A stretch of 64,000 bases of DNA from Bacillus sp. F19 (GTDB lineage Bacteria; Bacillota; Bacilli; Bacillales; Bacillaceae): the NCBI GenBank assembly GCA_023823795.1, contig CP085710.1, positions 4,304,001 to 4,368,000 of the forward strand, given 5' to 3'. The notes under the pieces were generated by a model. It was not told the origin of the DNA. It ran no database searches and was given only the letters and a program-made list of their open reading frames with translations. The translations under genes were made by a program, and so were the position numbers. This document shows, piece by piece, positions 59,133 through 62,081 of this stretch; the first letter of the stretch is position 1, and each line of letters begins with the position of its first letter.

Positions 59133-60404
59133 TTACAGCTTTAAGTATTTTTCTACAACATAGAAAAGTGTTTTTTCATTTTTCGTAACATAGGCTATTT
59201 CAGCTATTTTTTTCATCACCTCTTTTACGATAGAGGAATCTCCAACAAGGACAGAATGATTCAGGATCTCATAATAGAACTTCAGAGCTTCTTCCTGATG
59301 ATTTTTCCGATGATGCAAATCTCCGATTAAATGCAGAAATTTAAATTTAAAATCGCTGAAATCACTTAGATAAACTTCCAGGAACGTTTCATAGAGTCTT
59401 AGTACTTCATCATCCTGTCCTGCTTCATAATAGGTAACGGCCAGCTCATACAGCGTATTTAATATTCCTTTTACATCATCTTCTTGTTTGTAAATTTCAT
59501 GTGCAGATTGAAGATAGGACATCGCGCTGTCAGCATCCAATAAATATCTGCTGAGAATACCTAAATTTGTATATGTGCCCGCCAAATTAAGCTGATCGTC
59601 TGTGCCTTCGAAAAACAGCAAAGCTTTTGCGTAGGCCGCACTCGCGTTTTCATACTCCTTCATTCGTCTGTAGCACAAGCCAAGCACCATGTATACAACA
59701 CCTGTTTGATAGTAAATGGATGTTTTGCTGCTGATAGCCAGTGCCTGTTTCAAAAAGCGGATCGCAGAATAAAATTCTCCTTTTTTTGCATGTGCAAGAC
59801 CAAGGTTATTCAGTAAAGATATTTTTTCTACACCTGAAGCCTTGAAGGCAATTGAGTCGTCATAAGCCTCATTTAAATAAGAAAATGCTTTTGATAACTG
59901 ATCCTGGTTAATGAGCAAGGCCGTCAAATAATTGCTGGTTCTGAGTCTCTCTTCACAATATTGCAGGATGCAGAATAATTCGTAGCTTTTTTCATAAGCT
60001 GCAATGGCCTCTTCAATTTGAAGCTTTACCCGCTGAAGAATCCTTCCCTGGCAAAAATAATAGAGAGCAAGATCATTTTGGTTCAATGATTCAAGATTCT
60101 TTTCTAAGTCGTTTAAATGCTCAACTGCATTTGCAAAGTCATCATTGATCACTGCATATTCCAAACTGGATAGAGCTTTTTTTATATCAAAAGACAGAAG
60201 TGATTTATCCTCTTCTTCGAAAAAATCGTGAATATCACATTTCAGTCTTTCGCTGAATTTCAACAGCAGTTTATAAGAAGGCTGGACCATTCCTTTTTCA
60301 AGCTGGCTGATGTAGCTGCGGTTCACAATTCCTATTGCCAGCTCGCTCTGAGTCAATTTTTGTTTTTTCCTCAGCTGTCTTAATTTCATTCCAACGGTAT
60401 TCAT
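59133..60404 (-). CDS. NprR-like HTH-TPR (RRNPP family) regulator
   Basis: 423 residues: XRE-type HTH (residues ~7-60; LRQLRKKQKLTQSELAIGIV, SYISQLEKGMVQPSY) followed by about seven to nine TPR-like repeats (LLNNLGLAHAKKGEFYSAIR, YTNLGILSRYLLDADSAMSY). Architecture and length equal those of the peptide-responsive regulator NprR; the PlcR/Rap group is related. Beside it are a divergent small exported peptide gene and an extracellular protease gene, the usual target of NprR. ATG follows CAGGAGGCGCCGT. Confidence 0.88.
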   Translation of the reverse strand: MNTVGMKLRQLRKKQKLTQSELAIGIVNRSYISQLEKGMVQPSYKLLLKFSERLKCDIHDFFEEEDKSLLSFDIKKALSSLEYAVINDDFANAVEHLNDLEKNLESLNQNDLALYYFCQGRILQRVKLQIEEAIAAYEKSYELFCILQYCEERLRTSNYLTALLINQDQLSKAFSYLNEAYDDSIAFKASGVEKISLLNNLGLAHAKKGEFYSAIRFLKQALAISSKTSIYYQTGVVYMVLGLCYRRMKEYENASAAYAKALLFFEGTDDQLNLAGTYTNLGILSRYLLDADSAMSYLQSAHEIYKQEDDVKGILNTLYELAVTYYEAGQDDEVLRLYETFLEVYLSDFSDFKFKFLHLIGDLHHRKNHQEEALKFYYEILNHSVLVGDSSIVKEVMKKIAEIAYVTKNEKTLFYVVEKYLKL

Positions 60405-60425
60405 ACGGCGCCTCCTGATAAAAAT

Positions 60426-60518
60426 TTGAATATGTATTGATAATAAATTGAATAATTGTATATATTTGAATTGTCAGATAATTATAACAAATTGTTACTT
60501 ATTCTATAAATGTTAAAA
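60426..60518. promoter_or_regulatory. divergent control region with three TTGAAT repeats and a sigma-A promoter
   Basis: TTGAAT occurs at 60426, 60448 and 60466 in an AT-rich stretch, candidate regulator-binding repeats. For the plus strand TTGTTA (60491) - 16 bases - TAAAAT fits a sigma-A promoter ahead of the 60544 peptide gene. Confidence 0.5.
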
Positions 60519-60543
60519 TAAAAGAACTAATGGAGGCTATGAG

Positions 60544-60684
60544 ATGAAAAAATTCAGAAAACATCTTTTATTACTTGCATTTGGTACGGCAATCCTCTTA
60601 ACTGGATGCTCTAAAGCTGAGCAAAATGTCCACACTGCTGACGAAGAATGGCCAAGAATTATTAAAGCCAACCAATATAGTTAA
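60544..60684 (+). CDS. 46-residue exported peptide, candidate signalling pre-peptide
   Basis: A short frame: MKKFRKHLLLLAFGTAILL, TGC, then a mature part SKAEQNVHTADEEWPRIIKA ending NQYS. It has a signal peptide and a lipobox-like LLTGC. Small lipoprotein-type precursors are known sources of peptide pheromones. GGAGG lies 7 bases before ATG and a sigma-A promoter is upstream. It is divergent from the NprR-like regulator and convergent with the subtilisin gene. It could instead be a tiny lipoprotein. Confidence 0.65.
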   Translation: MKKFRKHLLLLAFGTAILLTGCSKAEQNVHTADEEWPRIIKANQYS

Positions 60685-60779
60685 CAGCTGCTTAAATGAA
60701 GATACATTGCTTCACTCTATCTATCTATTAAAACATATTTTCATAGAATTTAACCAAATATAGATGACGAAATCGTAAA

Positions 60780-60818
60780 AGAGCTTTCCCGATTCAGATG
60801 GGGAAGCTCTTTTTATAT
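60780..60818. terminator. bidirectional terminator between peptide gene and subtilisin
   Basis: AAAGAGCTTTCCCG-ATTCAGAT-GGGGAAGCTCTTTTTA; T runs on both sides. Confidence 0.75.
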
Positions 60819-60826
60819 TTCTCTTA

Positions 60827-62081
60827 TTATTGAACTCTTGCAAATCCAAAGCCTGATGCGTGGTCATCGCCTGTTGCTGCACCAATGCCGCCTTTAATAT
60901 CATACAGCTTTGCACGGCGCTGCAGCTCTGCACGAACTTGAACATTGCTTTGGCCTTTATTGGAAGACCAGATTTTCGCAGCAAGCCCAGATACGTGAGG
61001 AGTCGCCATAGAAGTACCGCTGATCGTGCTGTAACTGCTGTTGATCCAAGTTGATTCAATAGCAGCACCAGGAGCAGAGACTTCAATATCACGCTCTCCA
61101 ATAATAAAATCTCCATCTGTTGCCGAGTTTCCGCGTGAAGAGAAGTTTGCAACACGGTATGTTCCATTTTGCTGAACATTTTCAAGAGCCGCAACTGCCA
61201 CCGCATTTACTAGAGCGCCAGGATATCCAATCGTATTATTGCCTGATCCTGAGTTTCCGGCTGCTGCGATAACCAATGCACCTTTGCCATAAGCATAGTT
61301 TACTGCACTTGCAATTAAACTATCTTTACTGCTTGATCCAAGAGACATTGAGATGATGACTTGAGAACCAGTACGTGTTCCTTCATCTGCAGCATGTCTG
61401 ATAGCAGCTGCAATGTCATCTGAGTAGCCAGAACCGCTGTCTGTCAGTACTTTGTATGCCCAAAGCTCAGATTGAGGTGCCACACCGTATATTCCCTGTC
61501 CATCAGAACCGCCATTTGCAAGTGCCGTTCCTGCAACATGTGTTCCATGTCCATTGCGGTCTGTGCAGGAATTATTTGTATAAGTAGTCCCAACTGTAAA
61601 ATCTTTGCACTGTTCGGCATTTTGCGACAAATCAATATGGCTTGTCTGAACTCCGGTATCAAGAACAGCAATTTTAATGCCGTCTCCTCCACTAGTTGAT
61701 GTCAGCGAGCTGTTATTATAAATGGCTTTAATTCCCCATGGGGTTCTTTTGCTTGGAAGGGCCATTGTCTGAATCGGCTTTCCGGCAGCTACTTTAAAAG
61801 TCGGAACTTTTTCAACCTTGATTTTGCTGTTCTTCTGAAGTGCTTCTAATTGTTTCTGTGTAACGGTTGTTGTAAATCCATCCTTGCCAAAATCGCGTCG
61901 TACCTGATGACTCTTTTTTATTTTACCCTTTTCTGCATCAGTTCCCTTGATTACTGCACGAATTGATTCCTGTTTCACATCTGTTTTTACCTGTTCATTT
62001 GCAAAAGCGGCTGTCCCAAACATTGAAAGACTCATTGATAAACTTAATACTGCAGCTCCAAAACGCTTTACCGATTTTCAT
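60827..62081 (-). pseudogene. subtilisin-like serine protease with frameshift in the signal peptide
   Basis: Pre-pro-S8 peptidase: signal peptide RFGAAVLSLSMSLSMFGTAA, I9-like propeptide (~75 residues), catalytic domain with Asp in IKIAVLDTGVQTSHIDLS, His in NGHGTHVAGTALANGG, Asn in IAAAGNSGSG and Ser in SGTSMATPHVSGLAAKIW. The mature enzyme frame is intact to its stop. The ATG at 62081 (after GGGGAAAAGAA) is one base out of frame: ATGAAAATCGG needs one A fewer to give MKSVKRFG. The only in-frame ATG (62035) has no SD or basic n-region. Either inactive, phase-variable, or a sequencing error. Confidence 0.82.

Follow-up and report, generated by a model that had tools for sequence, protein, structure and literature searches.

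A predicted quorum-sensing pair with a Trp-Pro pheromone core in Bacillus sp. F19 and related receptors of the Bacillales

A 64,000-nucleotide stretch of the Bacillus sp. F19 genome (contig CP085710.1, positions 4,304,001 to 4,368,000; hereafter the window) contains a gene for a regulator with helix-turn-helix (HTH) and tetratricopeptide repeat (TPR) domains and, divergent from it, a small gene coding for a 46-residue peptide. These two genes very probably constitute a quorum-sensing pair of the RRNPP type, whose pheromone would have a Trp-Pro (WP) core. A first-pass annotation made from the DNA letters alone had proposed the pairing. Three observations now back it: the two genes are co-conserved in all eight genomes of the GTDB genus, part of the peptide is frozen, and an independent Trp-Pro signature accompanies relatives of the receptor. 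The coordinates of all features are collected in Table 1.

The small gene, preceded by GGAGG, codes for MKKFRKHLLLLAFGTAILLTGCSKAEQNVHTADEEWPRIIKANQYS, which has two lysines followed by a hydrophobic stretch at its N-terminus. The signal peptide, the LLTGC motif and the KANQYS end that the annotation had described are all there. In every genome of the genus the gene is divergent from that of the receptor, has 46 codons and is separated from it by 136-141 nt. Over the 28 pairs of these eight genomes, the ratio of non-synonymous to synonymous polymorphism (pN/pS) is 0.45 for residues 1-30, 0.02 for residues 31-41 and 0.52 for residues 42-46; protein changes are nearly nil in the genus-wide block TADEEWPRI[IV]K, while its synonymous sites do vary. 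A lipobox (LLTGC, LLSGC or MLTGC) is found in six of the eight peptides, and Cys22 is replaced in the other two (G003 and G007). Because residues 31-41 are frozen while Cys22 and the tail vary, the selected product is, on this pattern of substitutions, an internal peptide around ADEEWPRIIK and neither a lipoprotein nor the KANQYS tail. The earlier suggestion that the signal resides in the C-terminal 6-10 residues is thus not upheld. We also discarded a signal cut from a lipoprotein signal sequence, as are the enterococcal pheromones, since Cys22 and the residues preceding it vary in G003 and G007 and the core does not.

The receptor is the HTH-TPR regulator of 423 residues that had been annotated: Pfam models place an HTH_3 domain at its N-terminus, followed by TPR repeats including TPR_12, and no Rgg model is among the Pfam matches. 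The structural matches of its AlphaFold2 model (mean predicted local distance difference test score, 90.0) include NprR and RapI, with identities of 16 and 18%, respectively, in the structural alignments (VIA-align). In profile comparisons NprR scores 72 bits and PlcR 71 bits, the PlcR alignment covering profile positions 2-274, with both HTH and TPR parts. The label 'NprR-like' given to it earlier is therefore apt for architecture and fold, but not for identity (16%) or gene order, the precursor gene being divergent. The conservation of residues N200 and N280 is suggestive of peptide binding in the TPR groove. The receptors of the other seven genomes of the genus are 74-96% identical to that of the window, and of the named records Metabacillus idriensis DSM 19097 comes nearest (92%), followed by one titled Peribacillus frigoritolerans F-D2 (90%). 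Among the 73 other genomes of the family, only three yielded a match at E<=1e-12, with 24% identity and a PlcR-like length of 294 residues.

At the level of the order, relatives of the receptor were found in 33 of 397 genomes at E<=1e-14 and, with a profile, in 31 at E<=1e-60. Many of them adjoin a divergent short open reading frame (ORF) whose product has a hydrophobic, charged N-terminal part and contains a W-P core; in many relatives from other Bacillales families this core takes the form D-[PE]-x-W-P. The cores include GDDTWPRTK (locus L051), SDEVWPRQT (L053) and ADPVWPGG (L066), as well as ...MDPVWP-stop (L056) and ...MDPIWP-stop (L058), some relatives being 26-28-residue ORFs that end at DP[VI]WP. 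The 105-residue precursor of L060 has five DEIWP repeats, and L061, L062 and L065 have the PW forms SDALPW, DDILPWIIK and DEILPWSIK, respectively.

With one ORF caller, such ORFs were present in 21 of 31 regions upstream of receptors, as against a single one among 237 small ORFs from other parts of those loci. Of the 31 regions, seven come from the genus of the window and two pairs are identical (L051/L052 and L056/L071), and the motif was partly derived from this very set. For these reasons, 13 loci found after the motif had been defined served as a separate test set for the pattern [DE]x(0-2)WP. It occurs upstream of 7 of these 13 loci, as opposed to none of 25 background ORFs and none of 1300 dinucleotide shuffles, although four of the seven (L104, L113, L114 and L117) belong to one receptor clade and are not independent; the others are L106, L107 and L112. 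Within that clade DP[VI]WPD is repeated five times in L104 and L114 and three times in L113 and L117. L111 has EEIKPW, which is outside the tested pattern.

A WP or PW precursor stands beside 29 of the 46 receptors placed on the tree described below (8 in the genus and 21 outside), and these 29 span nine GTDB family codes, named plasmids not counted. Absence of the small gene next to orthologous regulators had been named beforehand as evidence against the pairing: it is present throughout the genus, but no precursor was found for the remaining 17 tree receptors. Relaxed translations revealed no WP precursor around L049, L050, L054, L055, L057, L059, L063 and L064, nor was a precursor found at L100, L101, L103, L105 and L108-L110, and at L115 the copy is degenerate and interrupted by a stop codon. 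The precursor survey left out L002, L013, L074-L076 and the second receptors of G371 (L082 and L083). In G371 (contig 17), L051 and L052 lie ~83 kb apart and each comprise the same receptor and precursor, then a second, different receptor of the family, which suggests a duplicated stretch or an assembly repeat. The phage collection gave no match at an E-value of 1e-5; a contig classed as viral in IMG/VR (UViG_2609460177_000004, L073) codes for a 30%-identical receptor, with no recognisable WP or PW precursor ORF nearby.

The tree of the 46 receptors was built with a quick method and has several long branches, and 11 of its 45 inner branches have support under 80. It does not include L052 (the second copy of the L051 locus), L067 and L102 (like L109), L068 (same place as L105), L099 (as L066), L116 (as L063) and L118-L120 (Priestia plasmids, all three with DPVWP genes). 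The receptors with DEEWPR, DDTWPR and DEVWPR peptides cluster in the clade of the window. The two with DEIWP pair with each other, less surely so as two long branches meet there. The four PW forms fall in a single clade, alongside two receptors without precursor, and DP[VI]WP, found in two clades, is the older state by parsimony, which also places the WP-to-PW change only once. Distributing four peptide types over 17 receptors, with each group represented by one or a few, takes three changes, the minimum possible, versus 6-9 in 500 label shuffles, and with 25 receptors the count is again three. The types were defined after the sequences had been seen; the tree itself was built without the peptides. 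On this tree, peptide type follows receptor phylogeny.

Among the other explanations for the small gene, the best surviving one is that it encodes a plain small lipoprotein or an exported effector under the control of the regulator, devoid of any signalling role, and we find it unlikely. It would account for the lipobox in six of the eight peptides and for weak, sub-cutoff matches of small-lipoprotein models. However, two of the eight peptides lack the cysteine while the internal core never changes, and relatives that consist of 26-28-residue ORFs ending at DP[VI]WP, or that carry up to five core repeats, are unfit for a lipoprotein.

We give still less credit to an NprR-type system in which the signal would lie in the C-terminal KANQYS part and the target would be the S8 protease encoded next to the pair. 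The receptor does resemble NprR in length and fold, and the protease gene, correctly recognised next door by the first-pass annotation, adjoins the pair in all eight genomes of the genus. This synteny says little, because an aldo/keto reductase gene is also nearby in all eight. Moreover, residues 42-46 vary while residues 31-41 are frozen, the protease gene is convergent and lies beyond a terminator, and 17 distinct neighbour proteins scanned from other family members (our selection) include no S8 protease. Control of the protease by the pair, as first proposed, is thus unsupported, though the enzyme is a possible target, or a possible trimmer of the precursor. The protease gene of the window has its frame closed at some point between its signal peptide and the start region upstream (60827-62081, minus strand), whereas the seven relatives of the genus all have an in-frame upstream start; this break may be a natural mutation or a sequence error.

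Least probable of all is a leader peptide like TnaC, with a W-P end that would stall ribosomes and thereby control the gene behind it: several relatives do end in ...DPVWP-stop, and on Priestia plasmids a DPVWP ORF precedes a radical-SAM gene on the same strand, but in the window a terminator follows the ORF, the next gene is convergent and the core is internal, some relatives repeat the core three to five times, and the precursors share a hydrophobic, charged N-terminus.

We thus favour a pheromone-receptor pair, for which the following route can be proposed. The Sec machinery would export the 46-residue precursor, and extracellular trimming would leave a short peptide around ADEEWPRIIK, with the core D-E-E-W-P. 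An oligopeptide permease would re-import this peptide, which would then bind in the groove on the concave face of the TPR domain; the 5.6-Mb host genome encodes seven SBP_bac_5 proteins. The receptor would act on the promoter region that the two divergent genes share, probably via the TAACA-N3-TGTTA palindrome, and both genes would thereby come under its control, most likely in a positive feedback.

The alignment of the eight intergenic gaps revealed the conserved stretch TTGTATATATTT.AATTGTCAG..AATTATAACAAA.TGTT, which contains the 13-bp palindrome TAACAAATTGTTA. Of 2000 mononucleotide-shuffled versions of the gap, 11 contained a comparable palindromic element. Promoter-like sites for the two genes both overlap the palindrome; they are suggestive only, because the scan finds 11 sites where shuffles average 4.8. 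As a guide to a regulon, the palindrome pattern yielded no targets from the window scan with two mismatches (two matches, both at one place, versus 2.7 expected). The three TTGAAT repeats noticed earlier are indeed present (60426, 60448 and 60466), a number that none of 2000 mononucleotide-shuffled gaps reached. Yet they are not conserved: we rejected them as the operator since, among the eight aligned gaps, only the window genome has the full set.

Table 1. Features of the receptor-peptide locus, in window coordinates
Feature	Position	Strand	Basis
HTH-TPR receptor, 423 aa, ATG start	59133-60404	-	Pfam HTH_3 and TPR; AlphaFold2 fold
Shared divergent promoter region, 139 nt	60405-60543	.	Strong conservation in alignment of 8 gaps (136-141 nt)
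Promoter-like site for receptor gene, TTTATA-18-TATAAT	60481-60510	-	Consensus scan, 10/12 with TG; suggestive only
Candidate operator, palindrome TAACAAATTGTTA (TAACA-N3-TGTTA)	60485-60497	.	Arms intact in 6/8 genomes
Promoter-like site for peptide gene, TTGTTA-16-TAAAAT	60492-60519	+	Consensus scan, 9/12 with TG; suggestive only
Predicted pheromone precursor, 46 aa, Sec-like signal, lipobox LLTGC	60544-60684	+	In 8/8 genus genomes, 63-93% identity
Predicted signal region with W-P core, codons 31-41, TADEEWPRIIK	60634-60666	+	pN/pS 0.02; D-x-x-W-P type core in relatives
Terminator-like hairpin between peptide and protease genes	60777-60813	+	15 pairs, then T-rich tail
S8 protease ORF, convergent neighbour, 5' frame broken	60827-62035	-	Pfam Peptidase_S8, E 1.9e-51; frame comparison with 7 relatives

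Beyond the genus, we hold with moderate confidence that the pair belongs to a Bacillales-wide RRNPP subfamily spanning nine GTDB families. Its signals would share a D-[PE]-x-W-P code, changed to x-P-W in one clade, with lineage-specific variants and up to fivefold repetition of the signal, and its members would have been recruited repeatedly beside biosynthetic clusters, including arsinothricin-type genes on Priestia plasmids; the conserved W-P anchor could allow eavesdropping between distant species.

Eight plasmid records were matched by the receptor, seven of them from Priestia. All seven Priestia plasmids have one to three tandem DPVWP-type genes (DPAWP in one copy) divergent from the receptor gene. 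These genes, absent from the PLSDB gene table, itself incomplete, precede an 'RCCLKC-tail radical SAM' gene; the same radical-SAM gene in G431 (L056) scores 699 bits with the ArsL arsinothricin-biosynthesis model (cut-off 450). An arsinothricin-type cluster, with ArsL-type radical SAM, aquaporin, ArsR and ATP-grasp genes, lies alongside at L056 and on the Priestia plasmids (L069-L072 and L118-L120). The position of receptor and DPVWP-type genes beside this cluster suggests population-dependent control of an organoarsenical antibiotic. For such neighbouring clusters, arsinothricin-type genes included, the Trp-Pro core predicts short inducer peptides.

Other receptors have different surroundings. 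L065, with its LPW-type precursor, adjoins YcaO and TfuA genes and, by eye, a small ThiS/MoaD-like ORF, and is possibly a thioamide-type cluster of ribosomally synthesised and post-translationally modified peptides. L061 adjoins two KAS-III genes and a short-chain dehydrogenase gene. Among the receptors without WP precursor, L049 diverges from permease genes, and one of these matches oligopeptide/nickel permease models with scores under their cut-offs; by eye, the genes divergent from L057 and L059 are transporter-like and those divergent from L063 and L064 are ABC permease-like. The receptors of L049, L063 and L064 are possibly listeners to foreign peptides. PlcR-sized receptors at L021-L023 and L121 (Alkalihalophilus pseudofirmus OF4 plasmid) have divergent exported ORFs ending in ...FYEDLPDQH or ...LDLPYIHT, which we take to resemble PapR; the ...LDLPYIHT ORF adjoins a YcaO cluster of the thiazole/oxazole-modified microcin (TOMM) type.

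The window pair fits the general RRNPP layout, with a TPR receptor, here with an N-terminal HTH, and an adjacent short precursor gene whose export is predicted from its sequence. In NprR-NprX of the Bacillus cereus group, nprX lies downstream of nprR on the same strand, the signal is of the SKPDIVG type, and NprR has a second, Spo0F-directed function. The window receptor is only 16% identical to NprR, its precursor gene is divergent in all eight genomes, its core is DEEWP and none of the eight peptides of the genus has an SKPDIVG-like stretch. Rap-Phr systems, including those with multi-pheromone precursors, differ by their Rap proteins without HTH domain, by another signal core and by the 18% identity of RapI. 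The Rgg-SHP and ComR-ComS systems are similar in that an SHP precursor gene can diverge from the receptor gene and that ComS signals are Trp-rich; in contrast, the Pfam matches of the window receptor include TPR models and no Rgg model, and its precursor is longer, with a Sec-like signal. Rgg-SHP systems are characterised by an Rgg-type C-terminal domain and a hydrophobic peptide that PptAB exports. PlcR-PapR, where papR lies downstream of plcR, is alike in its full-length HTH and TPR alignment and in precursor size, but PlcR has ~290 residues versus 423 here, and a DLPFEF-like end is absent from all eight peptides of the genus. The PapR signal is given as ADLPFEF in the portion consulted of PMC6568020.

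Available excerpts of PMC10075063 describe how RRNPP_detector found 21 candidate new RRNPP subfamilies, with TPR-containing receptors of 250-500 residues beside secreted precursors of 10-100 residues. This is the layout of the window pair, and neither the WP core nor Metabacillus appears in the main text as excerpted (PMC10075063). Repeated precursors, several precursor genes per receptor and a minority of precursors with type II (SPII) signal peptides are described in parts of PMC9765709, PMC10075063 and PMC11343458, and broad NprR profiles cover 21 genera according to sections of PMC9765709. Receptors like that of the window may already stand, unnamed, in the subfamily tables of PMC10075063 or inside such broad 'NprR' sets. 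In the open-licence literature, a full-text search for the literal core strings returned no quorum-sensing paper by title, and, among the matches listed, arsinothricin was unmentioned when combined with quorum sensing, as was Trp-Pro when combined with RRNPP. We read the RRNPP kind as already known and the Trp-Pro pheromone core as the new part. RRNPP precursors are usually too divergent to be compared between subfamilies, as noted in the excerpts of PMC9765709. Here, unlike those, one short core can be traced across receptor clades, including a WP-to-PW change for which parsimony needs one event, so that pheromone-receptor coevolution becomes testable by swaps of short peptides.
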